Shown here piece after piece: positions 10,700-64,000 of a stretch of DNA of 64,000 nucleotides; within the stretch, counting starts at the first letter, position 1; every line of letters starts with the position of its first letter. The position numbers and the translations under genes are program-made. The notes under the pieces are model-generated. The model had not been told where the DNA came from. It did no database searches and saw only the letters and a program-made list of their open reading frames with translations. This DNA comes from Polytrichum commune (Eukaryota > Streptophyta > Polytrichopsida > Polytrichales > Polytrichaceae): positions 22,024,144 to 22,088,143 of the forward strand of contig OX485809.1 of NCBI GenBank assembly GCA_950295325.1, given 5' to 3'.

Positions 10700-12200
10700 C
10701 GACATGCATGGGAGATGTTGGATCTATTGAACTTAGAGCCTCTTCACACACACACTGAAGACCCGTGACCATCACATTCTAAAATATCTCATGGGTCAAA
10801 AAGGTCGAGACTATCCAAGTTCACTTCACACTTGAAGACGAAGGTCTAAGGGACTCAAGGAAATATTATTATGGATGAACAATTTACATGAATCCATGCA
10901 TGGCAAACTATAAATATTGTTTTATGGTCCGTTGAAATTTGCATCAAGCCCACCTCCAAGACATAGACGCCTGACGCAAATTCCGACAAACCACCCCATC
11001 AATGGTACGTATGGCCTTTGGGATAAAAATCAAAGGGACCCCTCACATTTACACGATCACGGCCCTTGACCTTTTGTCAAAAGAAGTGGCCCTTAAGATG
11101 ATGGGAATTCTCCGTCCTTCAAATGTAGTGGGGAAGGAGGAAGTGAAAGTTGGGTTGGGTTTGAATGTTTCATGGCCTACCGAAATGTGCATCAAGCCCA
11201 CCTCCAAGAGGTGGGCGCTTGATGCAAATTCCAACAAACCACCATGTCAGTGGTATGGCCTTCGGGATAAGAATCAAAGCCCCCCCCCCCCTCACATTTA
11301 CACTGTCACAACCCTTAGCCTTGTGTGAAAAGTAGTGGCCCTTAACATGATGGAATTCCCCAGCCTTCAAATGTTGTTGGGAAGAAGGAAGTGAAAGTTG
11401 GGTTGGGGGGGGGGGGGGGGGAATGTGCATCAAGCCCACCTACAAGAGGTAGACACCTAACGCAAATTCCGGCAAACCACCCTGTCAATGGTATGGCCTT
11501 CAAGATAAGAATCAAAGCCCCCCCCCCCTCACGTTTACACAGTCACAACCCTTAGCCTTGTGTGAAAAGTAGTGGCCCTTAACATGATGGAATTCCCCGG
11601 CCTTCAAATGTTGTTGGGAAAAAGTAAGTGAAAGTTGGGTTGGATTTGGGGGGAGGAGGCTCAAATAATGTTTCATGGTCCACCGAAATGTGCATCAGGC
11701 CCACCTCCAAAAGTTGAACGCCTGATACAAATTCCACCAAACCACCCTATCAGTGGTCTGACCTTAGGGATAAGAATCACTCCCCCCCCCCCCCCCCCTC
11801 CCCAAAACACACACACATTACACGGTCACGGCCCTTGACCTCGTGTGAAAAGTGGTAGTGGCCCTTACCTTACCATGATGGAACTCCTTCCCCTTGGCCT
11901 TCGAATCAAAGGTTGTTGGGAAGGAGGAAGCGAAGGTCGGATTGGATTTGGGGGGAGGAGGCTTAAATAATGTTTCATGGTCCACCGAAATGTGCATCAG
12001 GCCCACCTCCAAGAGTCGAACGCTTGATACAAATTCCAGCAAACCACCCTATCAGTGATATGACCTTAGGGATAAGAATCACCCACCCTCCCCAAAACAC
12101 ACACACACATTTACACGATCATGGCCCTTGACCTCGTGTGAAAGTGGTAGTGGCCTTACCTCACCATGATGGAACTCCTTCCCCTCGGCCTTCGAATCAA
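10700..12200. repeat. Tandem array of ~240-300-bp units downstream of the FAS1 gene
   Basis: Units are marked by GCATCAAGCCCACCTCCAAG at about 10941, 11189, 11426, 11692 and 11993. Each continues with a dinucleotide-like ACGCAAATTCC, ACAAACCACC, a C homopolymer of varying length, TCACATTTACACGATCACGG, CCCTTGACC and GGAAGGAGGAAG. Spacing grows from about 237 to 302 bp. The last copy merges with the 3' end of the FAS1 coding exon at about 12200, so the array may have spread from the 3' flank of that gene. Similar single copies lie near 30.6-31.0 kb and 43.6-43.75 kb. Confidence 0.8.
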
Positions 12201-45037: not shown

Positions 45038-45490
45038 TTAGCCAATGAAAAAACCCCCGGCCCCGATAAAATTCCTAACATCATACTAAAAAATATGCCG
45101 CTAAGATTCCATACGCTTTTATTACTATTCTTCACCCATTATTACAAATAAAAAAATTCCAGAAGCATGGAAAACAAGCCTCACAATATTACTATACAAA
45201 AAGAGAAACCCCCACCAACTTACCAACCACCGACCAATCGTATTCGCCAATACTATCTACAAATTATTTACTAGTACACTTACAAATATACTTTCCTCAT
45301 ACGGAAAAAAATACCAAATTCTACACGATAGTCAAGAGGGCTTTAGAGCTGAAAGATGTACCGCTAGATAACTACAAACTATCATCGCAGCCTTAGAAGA
45401 TGCCAGACTTACCAACCAAGACATCTATATCCTATACATAGATTTCACAAACACCTTTGGCTCCATTGATCATGCTAGACTTCTTGTCAT
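45038..45490 (+). pseudogene. LINE reverse transcriptase, N-terminal motifs, frame-broken
   Basis: Pieces in different frames encode EKTPGPDKIPN (RT motif 0/1 region), HRPIVFANTIYKLF (motif 2), QEGFRAERCT (motif 2a) and ILYIDFTNTFGSIDH (motif A, Asp followed by F-x-x-x-F). Stops at 45150 and 45369 and frame shifts separate them. Confidence 0.75.
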
Positions 45491-45491
45491 C

Positions 45492-47033
45492 ATGAAAGAC
45501 CTTGGCTACCCACAAGATGCCGTAACACTAGTAGGTAACATATATTCACAATCCAATACAACATTTATAGGCGAACATTTCGACAAAACACAACCAATAC
45601 CTATACAAAGAGGAACAATACAAGGGGATACCTTGAGTCCATACCTCTTTATTATCTTTCTTGAACCACTTCTTAGATGGCTACAACAAGGAAATAACGG
45701 ATATACCTTCAATACCTCCAGCACAAAATTAAGCTCCGTAGCCTATGCCGATGACCTCGCGGCCATATCCAATAATATAACATCCCTCCAACACCAACTA
45801 AACAAATTAGACAAATTAGACAAATATTGTGAATGGGCAGGCATGGACCTCGGTATTCCAAAGTGTGTCATTACAGGATGCCCCAATAAATCAAAACTAA
45901 ACCCTCAAGCCTTCAAAACACATCTTAGAAACACCAACATAAATTTCCGAAACCAATCCATACCCATTCTAAGTCAACATGAGCCATATCTCTACCTTGG
46001 AATTAATCTAGTACCATCACTACAATGGAAAACACAAACACACATTACAACAACTAAACTAATCAAACAATGCAAACTACTAACCACATGCCCAGCCACC
46101 ATGAAGCAAAAAATTCAAATGGTACACACAGTCATAAGAGCCGGTATCGCCTACAGCTTCTACGCCGTACCATACTCACTCCCCGCCATCAAAAAATTAG
46201 ATAAAAGATTAATTGCCCTCCACAAAACCATATGTGGTCTCCCGAAATGCCTATCAAATGCCGTCACACAACTAACACAAAATATGTTTGGTACCGAAGC
46301 CTTCTCACTAAAAAATGCATATATAACATGTATAGGTGAACAACTTGTCAATGCCCTCAATGACAAAGGTAGACTAGGAAGAATCTATAATGGCCTGACC
46401 ACACACATACTTTCTAAATACGGCGGCTCACTTAACATACCACGCATAACCCAACACGACTCCCTAAGATCACCAATCACAAGAACGCTATTCCTACTCA
46501 AAACCACTAGTAACACCCACCTTAGAAACACACTAGAAAAATTCTCCCTTCTTCCCACACCACTAGAGACACAATGGATGCGCCAAGCACAAAATATTCC
46601 AACGATAACCCCCACTACCTCCCTAAACTACTTACATAAATTAATATTACAAAACATAACCGAACTCAAACACATAACACACTCCAATGGCACACAATTA
46701 ATGACAAATGACGATTTCAAACATTATTATACCTCCCCCACTAAAATAATTAAAGCCGCCCTAGAACAAGCACGGGTGCGCTTTTGCGAACCAACATGCC
46801 ACAACCAATGCCCAAACAATTGCCCAACACATGCCATACCAAATACCCTCAAGAACGCATACAAGATACAAAACCATCACATCCACACAAGAAGTAGTAG
46901 ACATAACCCACACCCCCCGCTACCTCCACCACCGGAGCACCCAAACCCCCCCCCCCCCGCATATCCAAAAAAACCATACTCAATTTCCAATACACTCTAT
47001 AATAAACGACCGCCCTCACATTTCCAAAGATAA
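45492..47033 (+). pseudogene. LINE reverse transcriptase C-terminal part, 513-codon open frame
   Basis: The frame begins inside RT and carries IQRGTIQGDTLSPYLF (motif B), AYADDLAAIS (motif C, catalytic YADD) and a later YLGINL block, then the thumb. Near its end is a Cys cluster C-x3-C-x3-C-x3-C (CEPTCHNQCPNNC), possibly a zinc knuckle, followed by a proline-rich tail. This is the longest intact piece of the element. As the upstream half of RT is broken, it cannot make a working enzyme here. Confidence 0.8.
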
Positions 47034-48269: not shown

Positions 48270-48570
48270 TTTTGCTATTACACAGACGGATCCTTCATCC
48301 CACCCAAAGAAACAACCCAAGGACACTGGAAACGAGAAAAAACAGGATATGGCATATATAACCCTTTCAAAAATCTCCAAATCGCAGAAAGACTACCCGG
48401 ACTCCAAAATATACTAAGAGCCGAACTAATGGCTATACACCATACCCTCCGCCTCCTCACTACCACATATTGAAATGAACCGGCACACATCTTCACAGAT
48501 TGTCTTAATGTACTATACCTACTAAACACACAAACAAAACATCCAACTCTACATAATAGCCACCCGGACA
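48270..48570 (+). pseudogene. LINE RNase H, N-terminal half
   Basis: Reads YYTDGSF (first catalytic Asp), ILRAELMAIHHTLR (catalytic Glu) and IFTDCLNVLYLL (second Asp) with one stop (TGA at about 48471). It ends at HPDKK, where the sequence switches to inverted LINE sequence. Confidence 0.8.
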
Positions 48571-48579
48571 AAAAGGGTG

Positions 48580-49400
48580 GGGACTTATATGGGTGTCCTA
48601 GTATGCATAATATGTCAGGTTTGAGCCTAGCGTTACAGTGACATCTTTGGGTGGTACATGTGCATGGAAGTAACCATGATGGTACTGTGTTTTCTTGGGG
48701 GAGCTCATTATATGTACCTGCATTCATGAGTGTGTAGTATCTTGTCTTTTTGTTGGAGATGAGAAGTTTGCGTATTTCCCATACGGCTTTGTTGTGTCTT
48801 TTGGTTATTAGGGCGTGTATATGTTGTTGTTTACATTTGAGGAGTACATGTAACCATGTGTCTGCTTCTTGTGTGTTGCATATGGGGCACGTATGTGAGG
48901 GGTATGCATTTCTTCCGAAGAAGAGTTGTTTTCTGGCATGTCCCATGTATTGTCCGGTTCTGAATTTGACTAGGCATGTTTTTTGTTTATCTGTAATAAT
49001 CGGGTTGTTCCAAAAATCGTTTGATAGTGTTTTGTCAATATCTTTGTTGTCTAGCCACTTATGTAGTTGATGTGTTTGGGTTGCTATAATGGATAGGTTA
49101 TGTTTTTTGTCATGTTTAGCGATGTATTTACCAAGGTGTCGGATGGGGCCTTTATCTGGTGTTTCTTGCATTGAGTGCCACCAATCTTTCTGTAGGTAGT
49201 ATGGCGTGGGGTGTGCATGTTCGTATGTGGTTGTGGCATCTCTATGTTCGAGTTCACAACCCATTTTGGCTAATTTGTCCGCTTGTTCGTTACCACTAAT
49301 GTTTGTGTGAGCTTTGACTTTATGGAGTGTGGTGGTTTGTGAGCGGGATTGCAACATCTCATTTATAGATTCGAGTATCTTTTTGTCCGGACGACACTTG
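48580..49400 (-). pseudogene. LINE RNase H C-terminal half and zinc-finger tail, inverted
   Basis: Minus-strand frame beginning about PDKKILESINEML with KVKAHTNISGNEQADKLAK (the last catalytic block of RNase H: H and D), a linker, and a zf-RVT motif HTCPICNTQEADTWLHVLLKC-like (C-x2-C ... H-x4-C). It supplies exactly the part missing from the plus-strand copy but in opposite orientation, meeting it at 48570-48585. Either the 3' part of one element was inverted, or two related copies sit tail to tail. Confidence 0.8.
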
Positions 49401-50135
49401 TATGTGAGCGGTGAGCAGAGAGCGGAAAGGATGTAAAAATAGCAAAGTTCTCTGACTAAAGTTAGGCATATGTAAAAAGATTCGAATATACCCAGAATAT
49501 TCCAAGAATAGTAAAAAATATGACCTATTTCCGTGGAATGCATAGGTCAAAAAATAAACAAAAGGCCCTGAATTTGAAATGGTCTCATTAAAATTGGAAA
49601 CCGGGAAGTGCTAAAATGATAGAAACATTGTGATATAATAGATAAGTAAATGATTAAAACCAAGGATGATCCCAAGAAAGAATATATGAAAATGATTTTT
49701 TCGAGATTGGTATAATTGAAGTCCGAATCATCTAGGAAATTGGCAACACGGAAGTAGAGTTGATAGACATAGGAAGCACCTCCAAATTGAACATGTAGTG
49801 TTCATCCGGGAGAGAGACACATGGCACAATTGAGTATTGTAATACAACATTTTGAAGGGAATAAAAATAATCCATGAGATTATATTTATTATAGCAAATT
49901 GTGTAAAGCATGATATGGATGGTATAGTTGATTTGAGAATACACAACATATATTGAACTGCTACCAAGATTTAGATGCTCAATCTGACCAGGGTGGAGAC
50001 AAACTGACAATCTTATATTACTGAGTGCAAATCTTATATTACTTAGTCAATGCCGGACTCGATTAGAAACATGGATGAATAGGCACTACTTCATCGACCA
50101 GGTTGATTTTAGAAAGGGCACTCCTAGACTAATTC
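49401..50135. other. Spacer between LINE and MULE gene
   Basis: AT-rich, no supported gene. The minus-strand LINE frame runs open to about 49543 with unclear homology. A MULE terminal inverted repeat was looked for here but not found. Confidence 0.4.
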
Positions 50136-53100
50136 CTAGGTCCGATCCAAAGGGTGAGTTAAGATTCCACTCTCGAGGACTACTTTGACCTCGTTGAAAC
50201 TGAAGGTTGGCGCGTGGATGAAAAGGTCTACATCTGGATTGCGATGGCAGACCTTTAAAAGGATGAAGTAGACATGTTTGCAATACGAGAACTGATTCCT
50301 CCCTCGAAAGTTGGTCATTGTCTTCTTGAATGCGGGGCAGGTGCAACTTGGAAGGGAGCTGATGGTGATCTGGTATTGTGTCACGTCGGGTGGCGTCATC
50401 GAGTCTAGCGCAATGATGCAACCATGGCCAGGGTGAGGAATCATTGTGACCGAGCGGAGTTGAGCTTTGAGGGAATCCGAAGAGCCCATGGATAGCCTCT
50501 GCTGAGGGTTTGGACGGGTTGCAGTGCGCTTGACGATCTTCCCTCTCTTGCTAGGATACCTGTCTGCATCCGCGGGCACCGGCACGGAGTCTAGATTTGC
50601 CGGAGACGGGGCTGTGGAAAAGAGCCTTCTGGGCGAGACCGGCACTTTCTGCGGCAGTTGGAATCCGGCTGCTTCGAGGGCCAAGATCTCACATTGCTTG
50701 AGGTTTGTACCAAGTTTCACTGGCCAAACATCCGGAATGCTTGGTCTCTCCTGCTGCGCAGAGTATTGAATGACCCATTTGCGCCTCCTACCCTTGACGC
50801 ACCTCTCGATATCATCTGAGCAGAAGAAGAATTTTGTGGACTCTTTCACATTCCTCCTAGTGCTGTGCCATAGACCGGTGTACGTAGGGGCGGGGGTTGA
50901 TTTCACACCCCTTACGATTCTCTCAGTACACTTCTTTTTGGTGACAGCTCTCTGGTCCCAACAACATTTGGCAGAAGTCTTTGGCAACCGAGCGATGTGC
51001 CACTCCTTCACGTTCACCCTAGTCTCCTCGACAACAAAGACGTGCCGGATCCGTCCCTTGGGGGTGGGGGACGGGATGACATCGTTGGCATGTGGCGCTG
51101 GGGGTGCAATTTTCTGGACATCGGAATCTTCCTCTTCAAGAATTATTGGCATGTGAGTGGAACGAGTCCTGACAGCCCTACCAATGCCACGGGGATGCGA
51201 GAAGTTGACCTTATCAGGCCTGTGCGACTCTTCATCAGCTCCAAGGGGCAGGTCTAGCTTCCGCTTCATCGAGCCAAACACTTCCTCTCCCGCCATGTGA
51301 GGGTCGCGTGTACAGAACTCGTCGGCTCCGGGCATGTCTAGCATGGGGTCCTGGAGGACCTTAGGGTCACCTGTTTTCTGGGCCCTACGTTTCGCCATCC
51401 GCAGCCTTAGCTCTTTCTTGCTCGGTCCAGTCCCGCCCATGTCGCCCTTCAAGTACTGGTAGTAATTGACGACCTGTAGGAATGCCCGGATATAGTCATC
51501 CACCGTGGCGACATAAAGATCACCGCCATTGTTGCCGGATGCTTGAAGCCACTTGTTGTGGACAGTCTCCGCAAGGTTGCAAGACGGCATCTCAGCAAGT
51601 TCTACCTCCGTGAATTTCTGGGCATCGCATGCAAGGTCAAGTTAGCATAAAATTCAGAACTATATAACCCTTCAAAGTCCGGATTGATGTTCATGGCAAA
51701 AATCGAATGAGCTTACCCCTGTCATAAATCCACCCCATTGGCGATAGCGGAAGTGCCAAAAGGCAAGCCACAACTCCAATTTACTCAACGTTTTTTCAAT
51801 CACGGCCCCAGCGGATACCCACCAGGCCCTCAGCCCATGGTAAAGACTCTCGGCCTCGGCTAGCGTCCGTGCCGTCCTATACTGGTGGCACATCTTCACG
51901 TGTTGTTCCCTCATGTTTTCAGCGATGTGTTTGTCCGTGTATTTCAACATGGACTGGGTCCAGTGAAACTGACAAGTCCTCTCTCGATCGTCCATGCGAT
52001 CCTCCTTCTTGCCGTTCCCGTATACGACCCGGACGGCATTCCAGTTTGCCTGCGCACTGTCCGCCATGAATCCTTTGAAGTAAGGCCTTTCGACGCCATG
52101 TCTCTCCATCACTGCGTTGAGGTTTTTCCAGAACACCACCTGCGCATCAATATCCTCGGATTGCATGTCGCAACATGCGATGGTCATCACACGGCAATAA
52201 GTCGAGTCGTAAACATGACAAGCCATGGTGGTCCACTGCCTCACCCGTTTGACGTGGTCGAACATTATCCAAGCATTCTCGAGGTCCCCCTTGGGCTGCA
52301 TTCGCTTCACCAAGTCCACCCCACTTCCAGGCCCCACCTCCGACATCTTGAACACGAAGACCTTGTCAAGCTCTGCACCTTGACCGGGAAACATGTTCTT
52401 TTGCACAAAAGCCCAGTTGCTGAGACCCCGCAACTTGGTAATGCTATCCATCACACCATACCTCCTCAAGTATCTAAAGGTGACGACCTTATTCCGGATG
52501 TTGGGCGAGGCCATGTCCTTGCATCGGTCAAGCACCGGAACGAGTTCCTCAAAAGTAAGCGTCTTTGGCGGATCGTCCTCGGACCTCAACAAGTAGTTGC
52601 CAACAAGCATCTTATTTGCTTCCAACACAACTGCACTCTTCGTGGCATGTGGAGTCTTCTCGATCTGATCTTTGATGAGGCTACTAATTTTGACCTTCGT
52701 ATCTCTATAGTCGCCAACTTTAACAGGATGCTCATGGGTTCCAAGGTGGATGCAAACACGGGTGTTGTTACGCTTGCCCGATACATAATAGATCTTAGCT
52801 CTACAAGTGGCAAGACAAGCGGGAGGTTCCTTACACACCTTGCAAACCAGAGTCGAATATTTGGGAGGACCCTGGCCAACAACAAATGCTTGCAAGGTAC
52901 ATCCGTCAAACTCAGTCTCGTTCACTTCGAAGATGCGATGCTCACGGGTCAGGTAGGCGCACTCCTTATTCTCACACCGCAGGTGACCGACACAACTTGA
53001 GAACCGAAAAGAGAGACCCATATCATTAGTGATGTTGGTCGTGATAGTTTTGGTCCAAACATGACCATCGTATCGTTTATCCATGCCCTGCATAGATTTT

Positions 53101-53933
53101 GCTTGCGTCTGTGAGGCTGAAGTACCGGCAAGAGGCAACTCAAACATGACATCACCGTTAAATATTGCAGGCAAGTACTGAACTCTCTCATGTCTAATGG
53201 AACTGTAGTCAAGCTTCTTTAGGAGATTCTTCTTCCCTGGCCTAGTAGCCAGCTTTTTCAAACAGTCTACGATACTGACGCACACACATGAAGAAGGCGG
53301 TTGCAATGGAAGACACTTATCTGAAACAACTACAGGAGACTTCGACTGACCAGAATGGTTGGGTGGACTAGGAACGAAAGGCGTGGATTTGCGAGGACTG
53401 TCATCGTTGTCTGATGAAAGGGTGATGACTGAATTAAAAGTGTCCGGTTCGACCTTAACTTTTGCAAGAAGAGGAGTCTTTGGTCCTGGCTCTACCTTGA
53501 CCTTTACATCAGTAGGAAGAGGGGTATGCATAGTGCACGTAGATGAACGGCTAGGGGTAAGAATTTCTGTAGATGCTGCCATCTGGGAATCTGTCAATCC
53601 ATAGACCCTATACCTGCCGGGAGCAAGTCTCCACATCTTGCAGTCATTTTCATCACGAATTGATAACTGGCCAATTGTGTGAGTTAGTTCAGACGTGAGG
53701 TCATCGAAAACCTCCTCCTCAATACTAATAGTGTCTTCTAGAAAAATGAATCTAAGACTCAAACGCTGACTAGACACTGAAGCATGTCCGTTCTCATCCA
53801 CGCGAAAGGTAAGAGGAATGCCCATGCCATGGGCGCGGAGCACAGCCAACGCAGCGGTTGAGACTGAATCCACCATGGCGAGTAGAGACTGAGACCAACT
53901 CAACTGGATTGATATTGCTATGTAGAAAGGCAA
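50136..53933 (-). CDS. MULE-type transposase with SWIM zinc finger, two exons, apparently intact
   Basis: Exon 1 is 53933-51717 (an ATG at 53876, MVDSVSTAALAVLR, is the more likely start) and exon 2 is 51617-50136; the 99-bp intron (GG|GTAAGC ... CCCAG|AA) is in phase 0. The protein is about 1,213-1,232 aa. Order: acidic/Ser-rich N-terminus with two VKVEP motifs and a VITLSSDNDD stretch; a Cys/His DNA-binding region (about 310-420, with CENKEC and HEHPVKVGD); the DDE core with CHVYDSTYCRVMTI, FMADSAQANW, CQFHW and, across the splice, NLAETVHNKW with the likely catalytic Glu; a long linker; and near the C-terminus a SWIM finger SCTCP...YCKH. MULE transposases cut and paste DNA with TIRs. No internal stop is seen; TIRs were not located, so it could be an active element or a domesticated gene. 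Confidence 0.75.
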
Positions 53934-54715: not shown

Positions 54716-54944
54716 TTGCCCAATCATTAATTATTGTTGTTTTTGATATTATAAATTTCCAATTAGATTAGGTTGGAGCCATATGTATTGCTAGCCAAAC
54801 CAATCAACTAAAGTCCATCCATTGCTGTCCCAGGAAACCGGCAGAGAAAGGAGTTGTTCACAACGACAACAACCAAGCAATTTGAACCGAGCCAGGGTAT
54901 GTTGTCTGAACATGAGGTGTAAGATTTTGTTATTGATATTTTTT

Positions 54945-56893
54945 TAGGAAGTGTTTGCGAAGTGAGGCCACCGAGTCTGAGTCATGTTCAGAGTTCGTGA
55001 AGGGTATTGGATGGTGGTGGTCGGGTCCGACCACCACCACTGGATTTTATTTTTTTTGAAGTGTTTGCGAAGTGAGGCCACAAAGTTGGAATCAATTTCA
55101 CGGTCCGTAAAGGATGTGGATGGTAGCGGTCGGGTCCGACCACCATCTCTGGATTTTTTTTTGAAGTGTTGGCGAAGTGAGACCACCAAATCGGAGTCAA
55201 GTTCAAGGTTCGTAAAGGGTGTGGATGGTGGTGGTCGGGTCCGACCACCACCTCTGGATCTTTTTTTTTGAAGTGTTTGCGAAGTGAGGCCACCGAGTCT
55301 GAGTCAATTTCACGGTTTGTATAGGGTGCGGATAGTGGTGGTCGGGTCCGACCAACACCTCTGGATCATTATTTTTTTGAAGTGTTTGCAATGTGAGGCC
55401 ACCAAGTGAGAGTCAATTTCACGGTTCGTAAAGGATGTGATGGTGGTGGTCGGGTCCGACCACCACCTCTGGATCATTTCTTTTGAAGTGTTTGCGAAGT
55501 GAGGCTACCAAGTCTAAATCAATTTCACGGTTCGTAAAGGGTGTGGATGATGGTGGTCGGGTCCGACCACCACCTTTGGATCATTATTTTTTTGAAGTGT
55601 ATGCAATGTAAGGCCACCAAGTGAGAGTCAATTTCACGGTTCGTAAAGGGTGTGATGGTGGTGGTCGGATCCGATCATCAGCTCTGGATCCTTTCTTTTG
55701 AAGTGTTTGCAAAGAAAGGCCACCGAATCGGAGTCAAGTTCAAGGTTCGTAAAGGGTGTGAATGGTGGTGGTCGGGTCCGACCAACACTTCTGGATCATT
55801 ATTTTTTTGAAATGTTTGCAATGTGAGGCCACCAAATGAAAGTCAATTTCACGGTTCGTAAATGATGTGATGGTGGTGGTCGGGTCCGACCACCACCTCT
55901 GGATCATTTCATTTGAAGTGTTTGCGAAGTGAGGCCACCAAGTTTAAATCAATTTCACGGTTCGTAAAGGGTGTGGTGATGGTCGTCGGGTCCGACCACC
56001 ACCTCTGGATATTTTTTCTTTTTTCTTGAAGTGCTTGCAATCTGAGGCCACCATATGGAAATCAATTTCAAGGTTCATAAAGGGTGTGGATGGTGGTGGT
56101 CGGGTCCAACCAACACCTCTGGATCATTATTTTTTTGAAGTATGTGCAATGTGGGCCCACCAAGTGAGAGTCAATTTCACTGTTCGTAAAGGGTGTGATG
56201 GTGGTGGTCGGGTCCGACCACCAGCTCTGGATCCTTTCTTATGAAGTGTTTGCAAAGAGAGGTCACAGAATCGGAGTCAAGTTGAAGGTTCGTAAAGGAT
56301 GTGGATGATGGTGGTCGGGTCCGACTACCACCTCTGGATCATTTTTTTGAAGTGTTTGCGAAGCGAGGCCACCGAATCGGAATCAAGTTCAAGGTTCGTA
56401 AAGGGTGTGGATGATGGTGGTCGGGTCCGACCACCACCTCTGGATCATTATTTTTTTGAAGTGTTTGCAATGTGAGGCCACCAAGTGAGACTCAATTTCA
56501 CGGTTCGTAAAGAATGTGATGGTGGTGGTCGGGTCCGACCACTACCTCTGGATCATTTCTTTTGAAGTGTTTGCGAAGTGAGGCCACCAAGTCTAAATCA
56601 ATTTCACGGTTCGTAAAGGGTGTGGTGGTGGTGGTCGGGTCCGACCACCACCTCTGGATATTTTTCTTTTTTTGAAGTGCTTGCAATGTGAGGCTACCAT
56701 ATGGAAATCAATTTCAAAGTTCGTAAAGGGTGTGGATGGTGGTAGTCGGGTCCGACCACTATCTCTGGATTTTTTTTAAGTGTTTGAAATGTGAGGCCAC
56801 CAACTGGAAATCAAATTCGCTGTTCGTAGAGGGTGTGGACACTAGTGGTCGGGTCCGACCACCACCTTTTGATATTTTTTTTTGGAAGTCTTT
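54945..56893. repeat. Satellite array, ~18 units of ~108 bp
   Basis: Each unit reads TTTTTTGAAGTGTTTGCGAA, GTGAGGCCACCAAGT, AGTCAATTTCACGGTTCGTA, AAGGGTGTGGATGGTGG and the palindrome GTGGTCGGGTCCGACCAC, CTCTGGATC. Palindrome centres lie near 55024, 55133, 55242, 55348, 55454, 55562, 55672, 55774, 55886, 55993, 56104, 56214, 56320, 56427, 56534, 56643, 56751 and 56856. Most variation is in the T-run length and in single bases; the palindrome is among the best kept parts. Confidence 0.93.
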
Positions 56894-56936
56894 GCGGTGT
56901 GCAGGGTTGTCTATTGTGTCGTGACGGAGGGTAATC

Positions 56937-57129: not shown

Positions 57130-58495
57130 TAGAGCCCGTCCGCCCCCCCGTCCGCTCCGTTCCCAACCCCGTACGCCCCGTTCCCCCCCCGTCCGCGCCC
57201 CGTTCCCCCCCGTCCGCGCCCCGTTCCCCCCGTCCGCGCCCCGTTCCCCTCCCGTCCGCGCCCCGTTCCCCCCGTCCCCCCCGTCCGCGCCCCGTTCCCC
57301 TCCCGTCCGCGCCCCGTTCCCCCCCGTCCGCCCCCGTTCCCGACCCCGTCCGCCCCGTTCCCAACCCCGTCCGCCCCGTTCCCCCCCCGTCCGCCCCGTT
57401 CCCAACCCCGTCCGCGCCCCGTTCCCCCCGTCCCCCCCGTCCGCGCCCCGTTCCCCTCCCGTCCGCGCCCCGTTCCCCCCCGTCCGCGCCCCGTTCCCCC
57501 CGTCCGCGCCCCGTTCCCCTCCCGTCCGCGCCCCGTTCCCCCCGTCCCCCCCGTCCGCGCCCCGTTCCCCTCCCGTCCGCGCCCCGTTCCCCCCCGTCCG
57601 CCCCCGTTCCCGACCCCGTCCGCCCCGTTCCCAACCCCGTCCGCCCCGTTCCCCCCCCGTCCGCCCCGTTCCCAACCCCGTCCGCGCCCCGTTCCCCCCG
57701 TCCCCCCCGTCCGCGCCCCGTTCCCCTCCCGTCCGCGCCCCGTTCCCCCCCGTCCGCCCCCGTTCCCGACCCCGTCCGCCCCGTTCCCAACCCCGTCCGC
57801 CCCGTTCCCCCCCCGTCCGCCCCGTTCCCAACCCCGTCCGCCCCGTTCCCCCCCCGTCCGCGCCCCGTTCCCCCCCGTCCGCCCCTCCGTCCGCTCCCCC
57901 GTCCGCCCCATTTTTTTTAAAAAAAATTTCCCCCCCCTCTGTCCGCCCCGTTCCCCCCCGTCCGCCCCTCCGTCCGCTCCCCCGTCTGCCCCAGTTTTTT
58001 TTTTCCCCCCCCCCTTCCCCGTCCGCCCCATTTTTTTAAAAAAAATTTCCCCCCCCTCCGTCCGCCCCGTTCCCAACCCCGTCCGCGCCCCGTTCCCCCC
58101 CGTCCGCGCCCCGTTCCCCCCCGTCCGCCCCTCCGTCCGCTCCCCCGTCCGCCCCTCCGTCCGCTCCCCCGTCCGCCCCAATTTTTTTTCCCCCCCCTTC
58201 CCCGTCCGCCCCATTTAAAAAAAATAAAAAAATCCCCCCCCCCTCCGTCCGCTCCCGTTCCCCCCGTCCGCCCCCGTTCCCGACTCCGTCCGCTCCGTTC
58301 CCCCCCCCCCGTCCGCTCCGTTCCCGCCCCCGTTCCCGACCCCGTCCGCTCCGTTCCCGCCCCCGTTCCCGACCCCGTCCGCTCCGTTCCCGCCCCCGTT
58401 CCCGACCCCGTCCGCTCCGTTCCCCCCCCCACCCCCGTCCGCCCCACCCTCGTCCCCCGTCCGCCCCACCCTCGTCCCCCGTCCGCCCCACACCC
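57130..58495. repeat. GC-rich minisatellite inside the hAT element
   Basis: About 1.37 kb built of 13-21-bp variants of GTCCGCCCCGTTCCC and GTCCGCGCCCCGTTCCCC. The part 57260-57810 repeats with a 270-bp higher-order period (for example 57271 onward equals 57541 onward). It is C-rich on the plus strand; the minus strand has G-runs of three to eight every few bases and could form G-quadruplexes. Short T/A blocks (57911-57927, 57994-58004, 58031-58046, 58182, 58215) break the right third. Long open frames on both strands here are artefacts of composition. Confidence 0.95.
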
Positions 58496-58717: not shown

Positions 58718-58776
58718 GACACGACATGACGGCACGACACCGTCATGACGTCGCGATAGACAACCCTGGCGGTGTG

Positions 58777-61000
58777 AGGCCTTGGAGTATGACTATATGG
58801 GAAGGTTTCTTAAGGGTGGTGAAAGGTGGTGGTCGGGTCCTACCACAACATCTGGATGCAGAGCTAGAAGCCCCAGCAGCTTTAGACGTTCATAACTTTC
58901 ACGTTTCATGTCTAATCTGCACATATGACCACTCTATCAGTATCTACGTTTTACGTAGATCAGGATGGACACCTCACTTGCCCCATTCAGGCAAGTATTG
59001 AGGAAGTTGTCCTTGTTGAAAGCTTCGCAGTCCGGGAGAGGTGCGTGACAGACCTCCACCTTTGGATTCTCTTTTGTTTTGATGTTCTTGCGATGTGAGG
59101 CCTTTGAATATGAGTCTAGGGAGTATTTCTAGAGGGTGGTGAAAGGTGGTGGTCGGGTCCGACCACCACATCCGGATGCAGAGCTAGAAGCCCCCAACAG
59201 CTTTAGACGTCCATAACTTTCAAGTTTGATGTCTGATGTGCATATCTGACCACTCTATCGGCATGTACGTTTCACGTAGATCAGGATGGATACCTCACTT
59301 GCTTCATTCAGGCAAGTATTGAGGAAGTTATCCTTGGTTAAAGCTTCGCAGTCCGGGAGAGGTGCGTGACAGACCTCCACCTTTGGATTCTCTTTTGTTT
59401 TGATGTTCTTGTGATGTGAGGCCTTTGAATATGAGTCTAGGAGAGTGTTTCTAGAGGGTGGTGAAAGGTGGTGGTCGGGTCCGACCACCACATCCGGATG
59501 CAGAGCTAGAAGCCCCCAGCAGCTTTAGACGTGCATAACTTTCAGGTTTGATGTCTGATGTGCACATGTGACCACTCTATAGGCATGTACGTTTCACGTA
59601 GATCAGGATGGATACCTCACTTGCCCCATTCAGGCAAGTATTGAGGAAGTTATCCTTGGTTAAAGCTTCGCAGTCCGGGAGAGGTGCGTGACAGACCTCC
59701 ACCTTTGGATTCTCTTTTGTTTTGATGTTCTTGTGATGTGAGGCCTCTGAATATGAGTCTAGGAGAGTGTTTCTAGAGGGTGGTGAAAGGTGGTGGTCGG
59801 GTCCGACCACCACATCCGGATGCAGAGCTAGAAGCCCCCAGCAGCTTTAGACGTGCATAACTTTCAGGTTTGATGTCTGATGTGCACATGTGACCACTCT
59901 ATAGGCATGTACGTTTCACGTAGATCAGGATGGATACCTCACTTGCCCCATTCAGGCAAGTATTGAGGAAGTTATCCTTGGTTAAAGCTTCGCAGTCCGG
60001 GAGAGGTGCGTGACAGACCTCCACCTTTGGATTCTCTTTTGTTTTGATGTTCTTGTGATGTGAGGCCTCTGAATATGAGTCTAGGAGAGTGTTTCTAGAG
60101 GGTGGTGAAAGGTGGTGGTCGGGTCCGACCACCACATCCGGATGCAGAGCTAGAAGCCCCCAGCAGCTTTAGACGTTCATAACTTTCAGGTTTGATGTCT
60201 GATGTGCACATGTAACCACTCTATAGGCATGTACGTTTCACGTAGATCAGGATGGATACCTCACTTGCCCCATTCAGGCAAGTATTGAGGAAGTTATCCT
60301 TGGTTAAAGCTTCGCAGTCCGGGAGAGGTGCGTGACAGACCTCCACCTTTGGATTCTCTTTTGTTTTGATGTTCTTGTGATGTGAGGCCTCTGAATATGA
60401 GTCTAGGAGAGTGTTTCTAGAGGGTGGTGAAAGGTGGTGGTCGGGTCCGACCACCACATCCGGATGCAGAGCTAGAAGCCCCCAGCAGCTTTAGACGTTC
60501 ATAACTTTCAGGTTTGATGTCTGATGTGCACATGTAACCACTCTATAGGCATGTACGTTTCACGTAGATCAGGATGGATACCTCACTTGCCCCATTCAGG
60601 CAAGTATTGAGGAAGTTATCCTTGGTTAAAGCTTCGCAGTCCGGGAGAGGTGCGTGACAGACCTCCACCTTTGGATTCTCTTTTGTTTTGATGTTCTTGT
60701 GATGTGAGGCCTCTGAATATGAGTCTAGGAGAGTGTTTCTAGAGGGTGGTGAAAGGTGGTGGTCGGGTCCGACCACCACATCCGGATGCAGAGCTAGAAG
60801 CCCCCAGCAGCTTTAGACGTTCATAACTTTCAGGTTTGATGTCTGATGTGCACATGTAACCACTCTATAGGCATGTACGTTTCACGTAGATCAGGATGGA
60901 TACCTCACTTGCCCCATTCAGGCAAGTATTGAGGAAGTTATCCTTGGTTAAAGCTTCGCAGTCCAAGAGAGGTGCTTGACTGACTACCACCTCAAGATCG
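58777..61000. repeat. Satellite array, 7 units of 322 bp
   Basis: Units repeat every 322 bp (palindrome centres near 58834, 59154, 59478, 59800, 60122, 60444 and 60766). Each contains AAAGGTGGTGGTCGGG and TCCGACCACCACATCCGGAT, GCAGAGCTAGAAGCCCCCAG, CATAACTTTCAGGTTTGATG, CACGTAGATCAGGATGGA, CCATTCAGGCAAGTATTGAG and GATGTGAGGCCTCTGAATAT. The last four or five units are almost identical, so the amplification is recent. A degenerate further unit reaches about 61080. It shares the GTGAGGCC and palindrome phrases with the 108-bp array. Confidence 0.95.
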
Positions 61001-61184: not shown

Positions 61185-64000
61185 ATGATGTCGATTGTGA
61201 ATGAAGGTGTGGAGGTTGCAACTGGAGGGTCATCAACAAGCGTTTCGGGGAGTCTTTGCAGAGGAGCCATGGACTTGGAGGTTACGTACGGGTCGCCTGA
61301 TGTAGGCATTGCACCAAGGAAGGGAAAGAGAAGGGTACGGCGCATTCCTCAGTCTGAGTCCAGTGAGAGTGGAGATCGCGACGACGGTGATGAGTCGCAG
61401 CCTTCGCTTGGGATGAATTCGGTAGGGGATCATAGTCACCATCCTCATGCTAGTTCTAGTCAAGGCCAGAGTAGTGGTGATGGAGGCCATTTTGAGTCAC
61501 CTATGGAGCGTGCTCGAAGGCAAGTTAAAGGCCTGACGAAGGTTGGGAACAATGTGCAAGCCACATTGCTCCATGGCAATATATATGAGGTAATCGAAAG
61601 TATGAGGCGGCAACCCATCTCAAAAGTAGTCCTTCGAATTCCATTGTGTAGGATGGTTCACATGCCCATGGTTAGACCTACACTTCGATGTGATGTTGTT
61701 AAGTTGATGGGAGCGTTTCGGTATGGGTACAAGCCCCATTCAGGTGTTATTTATGTGTCTGTGACGGATGACGAGGGTCATATCAGGGTTGTCACTCAAG
61801 AGGATGTACAACAATGGAGCCCTTGCTGGATACAAGAAAATGATACATTCGAAAACTGCTTGAAATCAGATCCTGACCTCGTGGGCTTGAGTGGTTCAAT
61901 GTTCTTTGTTTATGATGGTAACCATAGGCTCTTAGCTTGGAAGGAGGTGATTGAAACCCTTCATGCTGAAGATCAACATTGGGTTTCAAAGAATGGTAAT
62001 CATGAATGCGTTGTACTTGATACCGTTGGAGGTCGTGGAGATATCCTCACTGCCATGCACGATATCAACAGGTATTTTATTATTGATCTCATATTTTTTT
62101 TTATCCTCTTATTTGGCGCTTCACAATTTATGCAATCTGACATGCCAATTGTGCAGGTCCAATCAAACAGCACATGTGAAGACTAGCTTAGTTCATACTC
62201 TTCACCGTATTCGGAAATATGGATCGTATGACATTGAGTACTTCAAGCCCATGCTTACTCCGGAGCAAATCAAATCATGCCTCACGAAGTCAAAGAAGAC
62301 GTGGTACTCACTTACTAGAGATTTGATGGTCAACTTCATCTTCAGTGTAAGGATCTCAATTCCTTTTGATTTCTCCCTTATCCGCAATCACTTGATTTGA
62401 GAGTTTAGTTTTGATTTTTTGCTTCATTCTTCAGGATGACATAGTCCAAGTGGGTAGTGAGGCTGGGCAGTTATACTTGGAAGAGGTGGATGAAAGCATG
62501 CATAGCGATTCAGGACTCCAGGAATATGTTGACAAGGCTATTGCTAAGAAGAAGGAGGAGTTATTTACCTACTTCAACAAAGCCCAATCAGTTGCTAATC
62601 CAGCCGTAGGGGAGGGCTTCATAGAAGAGGTGAGTGAATTTTACTTGGATTTTGATTTCGATTCAAGACCTTAGCTCTGCCTCTACTGATGCATTACTTC
62701 CTTGGACATGCAGGTTATTGCGCATTATAGTGCACACGTTGCTGCCAAAGTTGAGATGTCACTAGAAAAACTGCAGATGGTGGCAACTGCAGCGGTTGAG
62801 CCCAAGTACAAAGTGCGTTGGCTCAAGTGGTGGAACAGTTCAGAAACTGTTCGAAAGGACCTCAGGTTTCCAAAATACCCTGCTGGTGAGGACACGCTCA
62901 AGAAATGGATGGACCGTGCTGCTCTTTGGGCAGAGATAGAGGACAGTGCCACTCAAGAGCTTGTTGGTTACATAGCACTAGTGGGTGGGGTTGATAAGTC
63001 CAAGGATGTAGAGAGTCTTGAGGACTACATTGACACTTGGCGGATTTGCCTTTGGGACAAGGCATTTAACTCCTTCTTATCTAGTTCTGATGCACACAAT
63101 AAATCCCTTGTGTTTGATAAAGTCAAGGATGGGGATCTTCTTGTGAAGCGGCTTTGCCTCAGGTATGAGTTAGTTATTTATTCATTTCATTACATTTTTT
63201 TTTTCAATGCCGATGGCTGCTTGCGGTTTTGCTTTAGTGTGATGTTATGTGTGCCTTGCTCATTCATGATTTTTTTACCAATCTCATCTAGTGTCTTTTG
63301 CTAAATTTTGAAGGTATATGAAGCACGTTCTTTTTAAAGTTGGGGCAATTCGGAAGCTACCTCCTTGTGTGCAGGGGTGGTGCGATTCTTCTTCACCGAC
63401 CTTCATCTTCTCAAAGGCACAGAAGAAGAACTTTAGTAGAGAGCATCTCATTGAATGTTGTTGGTACATTGAATGTCCTAAGGGCTTTGTGCCTGACTCA
63501 GAGTCTGAGATCAAGAAATCCTTAACTGTCACACAGGATCTCCCTAATGATGATGATGCACAAGAAGTTGAAGAGATTGTTGTTCTTGAAGTTTCACCTA
63601 CCTTGGATGGAGAGAAGTCTTCTGGTAAGAAGAAGCTTGCTGCGAAGACTTCAACAACTAGAGTGTCCAAGAAGAGTAGAGCAATTGTTGCTTCAGTGGT
63701 TGCCACTGGATCTGCCACAATTGAAGACACTCTTATGGGCGAAGCTGATAGTGAGCCCTTTCTACTCACTCAGAGTCATGTGAAGGTACCAACTCATCCC
63801 TCTCTATCTCAGCATCCTTCTTCTGAGAGCAGACCGCAAGTCCTTGTCATCAACGACTCCATTCTTAAGCAGCAGCAGTCTATTCGTGAGGTGCGCAAGT
63901 TTGTTGTATCATGCTCTCCTTCTCGCTCATGGAGAATCCACGGCGTGCCTTCATTGCGTGGAGCAGCTGACTTGGTAATTGCAGACTTACCGGAAGGTCT
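61185..64000 (+). CDS. Large spliced gene with ParB-like motif and possible methyltransferase start; 3' end outside window
   Basis: Exons 61185-62071, 62157-62346, 62435-62629, 62714-63162 and 63314-64000+ join in phase, giving more than 800 residues. An acceptor-like TTTTTGTGCAG at 61168-61178 means exon 1 could also be internal. Order: acidic/Ser-rich N-terminus with basic RKGKRRVRR; at about 130-290 a domain with YDGNHRLLAWKEVIE, like the DGNHR/GxHR core of ParB/Srx-type domains; helical regions through exons 2-4; Trp-rich KVRWLKWWNSS; a low-complexity Lys/Ser linker; and at the right edge RGAADLVIADLPEG, like the start of a DNA/RNA methylase core (DPPY replaced by DLPE). ParB-like domains fused to methylases are known from phages and mobile elements. 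Function here is inferred; no stop codon interrupts. Confidence 0.6.

Follow-up and report, generated by a model that had tools for sequence, protein, structure and literature searches.

What does a spliced gene with a ParB-type motif near one end and a methylase-type motif near the other do in the nuclear genome of a moss? The question is raised by a stretch of 64,000 nucleotides from Polytrichum commune (hereafter the window; C7:22024144-22088143 in the searched genome of 408 Mb, with seven large contigs of 42-78 Mb). An earlier reading of the bare sequence had seen at its right-hand end a plant gene with a ParB/Srx-like core and a methyltransferase-like C-terminus, lying beside a recent satellite and perhaps belonging to a captured or transposon-borne DNA modification system.

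The accessory gene and its transposon

The five exons proposed in perfect phase are confirmed, with GT/AG junctions throughout. Continuation to the right of the window extends exon 5 and adds two further exons, which brings the full protein to 1155 residues (in copy c3, its three premature stops read through):

61185..62071, + strand: exon 1, with RIPLCR at residue 151 and DGNHR at residue 244 (61914-61928); putative ParB/Srx-like domain
62157..62346, + strand: exon 2, GT/AG junctions, in phase
62435..62629, + strand: exon 3, GT/AG junctions, in phase
62714..63162, + strand: exon 4, GT/AG junctions, in phase; split by one additional intron in family B
63314..64000, + strand: start of exon 5, with the motif IV equivalent DLPEG at 63984-63998; the exon runs beyond the window to 64541
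64636-64840 (window numbering, beyond the window end), + strand: exon 6
64949-65234 (window numbering, beyond the window end), + strand: exon 7

DGNHR was correctly placed at residue 244, but DLPEG follows at residue 798, so that 554 residues rather than some 500 lie between them. A frameshift at about 64.17 kb, just past the window end, disrupts the methylase part of the window copy.

The window copy belongs to an element family designated A. The homologous gene of a sister family, B, has identical junctions plus one extra intron and, because these intron positions are kept despite saturated synonymous sites, the gene is real and more than a chance succession of open frames; its description as a spliced plant gene thus holds. 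The proteins of families A and B are 59% identical over the ParB-like part and 50% over the methylase part, and the DNA of the two accessory genes can be aligned over short stretches only (65-67% over 470 bases, 74-77% over 129 bases). A comparison of copy c3 with family B over 1047 codons, stop codons excluded, gave a saturated pS of 0.752 and a pN of 0.379. The ParB-like part has a pN of 0.29 against a saturated pS of 0.85, the methylase part 0.37 against a saturated 0.82, and Ka/Ks amounts to 0.14 in the middle part, 0.72 at the N-terminus, 0.58 in the linker and 0.49 in the tail. Such low pN against saturated pS indicates that selection has maintained the protein, most strongly in the middle and the two domains.

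The gene does not stand alone. The window copy (c7) of the surrounding transposon is 17.0 kb long, reaching from 49389 to 2.4 kb beyond the window end, and contains the following parts besides the accessory gene:

49389..49426, + strand: left terminal inverted repeat GGACGACACTTGTATGTGAGCGGTGAGCAGAGAGCGGA, boundary from the alignment of copies
50139..51641, - strand: transposase, second open frame, 501 aa, with a SWIM-type zinc finger
51675..53933, - strand: transposase, first open frame, 753 aa, containing FKGFMADSAQANWNAVRVVYG...CQFHW; relatives beside lineages A-E
54937..56895, + strand: array of units of about 106 bp; 17 sites within 2 mismatches of GGTGGTCGGGTCCGACCACC, 8 of them exact
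57135..58491, + strand: GC-rich short-period repeats inside the element, partly common to copy c6b
58773..60992, + strand: array of 322-bp units, one palindrome per unit, 6 exact and 1 with 2 mismatches
66404 in window numbering (C7:22090547, outside the window): right terminus of the window copy, partner of the left terminal inverted repeat

Alignment of the copies places the left end, GGACGACACTTGTATGTGAGCGG, at position 49389 of the window copy, and the alignments of family A copies stop sharply at both termini. Genome-wide, the right end, ...GCTCGCATACGACCTTTCCCC, has 7 exact matches, which are the right termini of seven family-A copies; the remaining two carry the 21-nt right-end motif with one change. 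The terminal repeats are imperfect when compared by eye (left GTATGTGAGC..GAGAGCGGA, right GTATGCGAGC..GAGAGCGGA), and no inverted-repeat partner of the 21-nt right end was found within 4 edits. MULE (Mutator-like) transposons leave target site duplications of 9-11 bp. Perfect 10-bp duplications, identical on both sides, flank four of the six copies with both ends:

c3: GAGAGTGGAT
c6a: ACCTCTCAAC, sitting in a local tandem repeat
c6b: CACTGGTGTG
c5: GCTAAGAACG

The 10 bases flanking the window copy and c1 differ between the two sides, without a target duplication. From end to end, c3 spans about 14.6 kb, c6a 16.5 kb, c5 22 kb and c6b 34 kb. Since satellites, accessory gene and divergent gene are enclosed by matching ends and target duplications, they are mobile as one unit. 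The transposon is MULE-like and carries the accessory gene as its second gene; this is not a free-standing plant gene. A host gene adjoining a satellite is rejected, since matching target duplications enclose the gene together with the satellite and the transposase; the satellite, taken before for a neighbour, is an internal part of the element. The target duplications also led to the rejection of a Helitron.

The divergent gene (53933-50139, minus strand) lies on the strand opposite to the accessory gene. The FKGFMADSAQANWNAVRVVYG...CQFHW segment of its first open frame resembles MULE-like DDE transposases. The Pfam SWIM model reaches E 0.0012 and 18.7 bits with the family A transposase, just below the cut-off of 19.6, and E 0.14 with that of family B. 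None of the Pfam MULE transposase models matched the transposase of either family and the element is therefore called 'MULE-like' only. Transposase DNA of the two families is 83% identical over 2.4 kb; next to the saturated accessory gene, this perhaps points to gene swapping between elements.

Family A occupies 9 places in the genome with 92-100% DNA identity, three of them partial and six full length or nearly so with respect to the query. All nine copies are damaged, and 46 of the 73 differences between the window copy and the majority are C>T or G>A, 36 of those 46 outside CpG; on these grounds family A looks silenced and decaying. Family B comprises 21 copies that are mutually 98-100% identical across the 4.5-kb gene region, and it looks recent because 16 of the best 17 rows keep the frame of its long methylase exon open for 428 codons. 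The family-B copy whose gene was read has 377 open codons and one in-frame stop in this exon, some other copies have additional stops within the ParB exon, and among the copies read from either family none is open end to end.

Other features surround the element. An open frame at 48281-49546 on the minus strand is RNase H-like (E 2.7e-5, just below the Pfam cut-off) and crosses the left end of the transposon; the window copy may therefore sit in or beside a retroelement. A reverse transcriptase frame at 45372-47030 on the plus strand (Pfam RVT_1, 5.6e-18), probably of a LINE, lies in strong GC skew (-0.36 to -0.50 at 44-48 kb). A tandem array with 3.4 copies of a 237-bp unit is found at 10934-11793.

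Palindromes in the spacer between the two genes

The arrays of 106-bp and 322-bp units are both located in the spacer between the divergent genes, and both carry GGTGGTCGGGTCCGACCACC. The plus strand of the window has 14 exact sites of this palindrome, and 100 shuffles had none. The whole genome has 49 exact sites, every one of them inside one of seven family-A copies (one on C1, 4 on C2, 10 on C3, 4 on C5, 7 and 9 in the two copies on C6 and 14 on C7), and the reversed control pattern has zero matches. Across 26 of the 106-bp units sharing an anchor word, the palindrome core is 95% conserved, which is only slightly more than the 88% of the remaining unit.

Family B has a different palindrome with the same centre, GGGGCACTGTCGGATCCGACAGTCCCC, read upstream of one B gene (L218). 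A pattern search with its 18-nt core returned 27 genome places, which amount to few independent ones as the B copies are recent duplicates. Of these, 25 precede a B-family ParB exon by 0.64-1.14 kb and one by 9 kb; the last (C4:31485296) falls roughly 0.5 kb beyond the left end of another copy. The core common to both families, GTCGGNTCCGAC, has 722+713 matches (1435) compared to 56+50 (106) for the reversed pattern, with perfect palindromes counted on both strands in either case. On C1, where 51 sites are listed, 43 are in arrays within 10 kb upstream of a listed ParB-gene match, 2 are inside ParB genes and 6 are away from any listed ParB gene. At C1:14070223-14078031, five core palindromes are separated by about 35-43 kb from the closest ParB-gene match listed, perhaps in an insertion-split or unlisted element.

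The arms of the palindrome differ between the families and its symmetry is retained, which is the pattern expected of sites for a symmetric binder. On balance it is probable that the accessory gene of this MULE-like transposon encodes a DNA-binding protein that acts on the element's own iterated sites, in anti-silencing or marking. The gene product would be a nuclear protein made of a putative ParB/Srx-like half and a permuted methylase-fold domain with D[L/I]PE, and would recognise the palindrome with the core GTCGGNTCCGAC that its own element iterates between the divergent genes. By coating the spacer it could keep the element promoters open against host silencing; alternatively, it could mark the element DNA for the transposase. 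We infer the binding to the palindrome, the absence of methylation and the anti-silencing purpose.

It appears unlikely that the transposase binds the palindromic arrays instead and that the ParB/methylase protein has a different function, for example as a transposition cofactor or nickase. The spacer does sit between both genes, and non-specific nicking of DNA is reported for a bacterial ParB-methylase, Bce_0392 (PMC5512222). However, the arrays of the window copy are internal and more than 5 kb from either end, and the arms differ between A and B, whose transposase DNA is 83% alike and whose ParB/methylase proteins are merely 50-59% identical. By this comparison the palindrome diverged along with the ParB/methylase protein.

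The methylase-like and the ParB-like parts of the protein

The assignment of a methylase-like C-terminus is upheld by profile searches. Pfam N6_N4_Mtase matched family A with E 7.8e-4 (19.9 bits, below the cut-off) and family B with E 1.6e-6 (28.7 bits, above the cut-off of 26.7), and DNA methyltransferases of the PHROGs collection were found with E 2.6e-6 for A and 1.3e-7 for B. Solved structures gave a DpnA-type adenine methylase (E 1.7e-4 and 7.8e-5) and CcrM (E 0.07 and 8.3e-4). An identity with CcrM itself was rejected: the NCBIfam model gives E 1.8e-6 yet stays far under its own cut-off (27 of 830 bits). Translated searches (tblastn) of phages with the methylase part returned 134 records at E up to 10, 8 of which cover at least 80% of the query, and the first match was to Javan244 (E 6e-4, 82% of the query, 24% identity). 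Annotation and motifs identify the proteins of Streptococcus phage Javan244 and of phage NatCom_3357 as ParB-methylase fusions. Aligned by hhalign to such phage fusions (63+2), the domain matched over 186 columns with a probability of 65% and E 5.9e-5. This alignment sets DLVIADLPEG against the phage NLVLTDPPYN, in agreement with its earlier placement at the position of a DPPY-type motif, and DLVIDVAAATGNS against TLVLDPFLGSGST; the motif order is permuted, with motif IV preceding X and I. According to these profile matches, the C-terminus is a permuted (beta-class) N6_N4_Mtase domain.

The catalytic (D/N/S)PP(Y/F/W) is absent, and DLPE takes its place in A and B and DIPE in lineages C and D. 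The motif IV region reads D[L/I]PE[G/N]LPVP, and all four lineages read have Glu where DPPY has its aromatic residue. The domain is probably non-catalytic but kept by selection. No methyl transfer is expected, because the catalytic motif is replaced and a change of SPPY to APPA in the rotifer enzyme abolished 4mC addition (PMC8885841). It is thus improbable, more so than transposase binding to the arrays, that the protein marks the element as an active DNA amino-methyltransferase (6mA or 4mC) with D[L/I]PE as an unusual active site. In favour of such an enzyme, family B exceeds the Pfam cut-off, the motif IV region is conserved across the four lineages, and a permuted N6_N4 methylase of bacterial origin serves as 4mC enzyme in bdelloid rotifers (PMC8885841); against it stands the Glu in place of the catalytic aromatic residue, although the conserved Glu may signify a new chemistry. 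The suggested transposon-borne DNA modification system is borne out as to the transposon; modification is doubtful.

The N-terminal half is harder to place. YDGNHRLLAWKE and YDGNHR, a G.HR-type motif, are invariant between families A and B; we take G.HR to be the active-site motif of ParB/Srx proteins, which the pattern around YDGNHRLLAWKE resembles. The proposed ParB/Srx-like core has its DGNHR motif, but Pfam, NCBIfam, PDB, PHROGs, tblastn against phages and plasmids, and hhalign gave nothing significant for ParB/Srx. The 'ParB-like partition protein' phrog_1033 came with non-significant values for A (E 0.18 (second) and 0.12 (first)) and was also listed for B. Comparison of the ParB-like part by hhalign with the 63+2 phage fusions returned no meaningful match, nor did that with 12 phage ParB proteins and a sample of phage fusions (probability 0.5%). 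Close relatives of exon 1 were not found in viral contigs, and the middle region (residues ~300-640) matched no family. Single-sequence AlphaFold2 models of single exons were too poor for a fold search (mean pLDDT 38.9 and 39.2). From its motifs, a ParB identity of the N-terminal half is put forward as a hypothesis. The Pfam ParB_N model has 4 matches in the genome, none in the accessory gene family; they lie on C10, C12 and C23, outside the seven large contigs, and perhaps stem from bacterial contamination.

Known counterparts and element lineages

By analogy, the closest working counterpart is VANC of the Arabidopsis VANDAL transposons. In noncoding VANDAL21 DNA, tandem repeats iterate a motif to which VANC21 binds (PMC5735166), VANC binding induces loss of silencing marks on its own element, and the family-specific motifs change together with the protein (PMC5735166, PMC10398659). 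Like this Arabidopsis MULE, the moss element combines a transposon with an accessory protein and with a short family-specific motif iterated in noncoding tandem repeats. Two features set the moss system apart: its accessory protein combines a methylase fold with a putative ParB-like half, and the iterated site is palindromic. To our knowledge, only a few transposon proteins counter silencing by reading their own DNA. The moss protein, if it does so, would be an independent case built from a methylase fold, a bacterial-type modification protein turned into a device for self-recognition and anti-silencing. Its predicted binding site is short enough for a direct test in co-diverged pairs.

Phage and bacterial ParB-methylases (Bce_0392, Javan244, NatCom_3357) likewise have the ParB-like part first and the permuted amino-methylase last. 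They measure 413-415 residues and differ from the moss protein, which has 1155 residues, introns, a long unmatched middle and no DPPY, and whose ParB part cannot be aligned to theirs. With N4CMT of bdelloid rotifers the moss protein shares a permuted N6_N4 methylase domain in a eukaryote; transposons are among the targets of the rotifer enzyme, but its gene belongs to the host and the enzyme has SPPY as well as a chromodomain, whereas the moss gene is carried by a transposon and has D[L/I]PE (PMC8885841). In one case a plant protein with a ParB domain and a DCD domain has been reported; DCD stands where the moss protein has the methylase, and the part of the report at hand links it to no transposon (PMC1182354).

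The moss element also recalls bacterial partitioning. ParB-parS systems combine a G.HR-type motif with clustered palindromic sites. Motif and palindrome clusters are both present in the moss element, but ParB membership fails at the profile level. Tentatively, these elements may form a transposon superfamily with a parS-like centre, in which each ParB-like/pseudo-methylase protein would read the palindromes of its own spacer and protein and palindrome arms would co-diverge. More generally, a methylase-related protein together with arrays of mirror-image sites suggests a self-marking or self-protecting system. No ParB-methylase element in a Mutator-like transposon was found in the open-licence literature, searched largely by title and start of the abstract.

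Relatives were searched genome-wide with exons counted apart. The family-B methylase domain has at least 156 matches (1948 first-look candidates, 141 scored), the ParB-like domain at least 190 (1720 candidates, 150 scored) and the transposase segment at least 150 (1256 candidates, 150 scored). Bacterial-type amino-methylase domains thus persist in plant transposons and could be mistaken for host DNA methylases. Among the listed matches taken as lineage C, 28 of 53 methylase matches have a ParB-like match upstream on the same strand within 30 kb and 25 have no such partner. The spacing is 2.7-7.5 kb in 24 of the 28 pairs; 2 pairs in other arrangements were seen and 0.14 were expected. A divergent transposase upstream forms 18 pairs for the 74 ParB matches listed in this lineage (7 in other arrangements, 0.4 expected; 146 of the 150 transposase matches were used), so that most of these ParB matches are without a transposase at the expected place. 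Among the matches listed for lineages D/E, 7 of 8 methylase matches have a divergent transposase upstream. Judged by these matches, the architecture of ParB-like part, methylase and transposase is old and widespread. A captured host or microbial gene riding as a functionless passenger, to which the damage in all nine family-A copies would be congenial, is very improbable given the selective constraint between A and B, the recurrence of the ParB-methylase pair in lineages A, B and C with a divergent transposase beside A-E, and the 428 open codons that 16 of the best 17 family-B rows have in the frame of the long methylase exon.

Two transposase relatives, at C3:13620523 and C3:58494821, have open frames of 2390 and 2527 codons, far longer than the others. 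The ParB-like matches at C4:4897398-4897997 and C4:5114478-5115077, 217 kb apart, have identical score and stops and are perhaps products of a segmental duplication.
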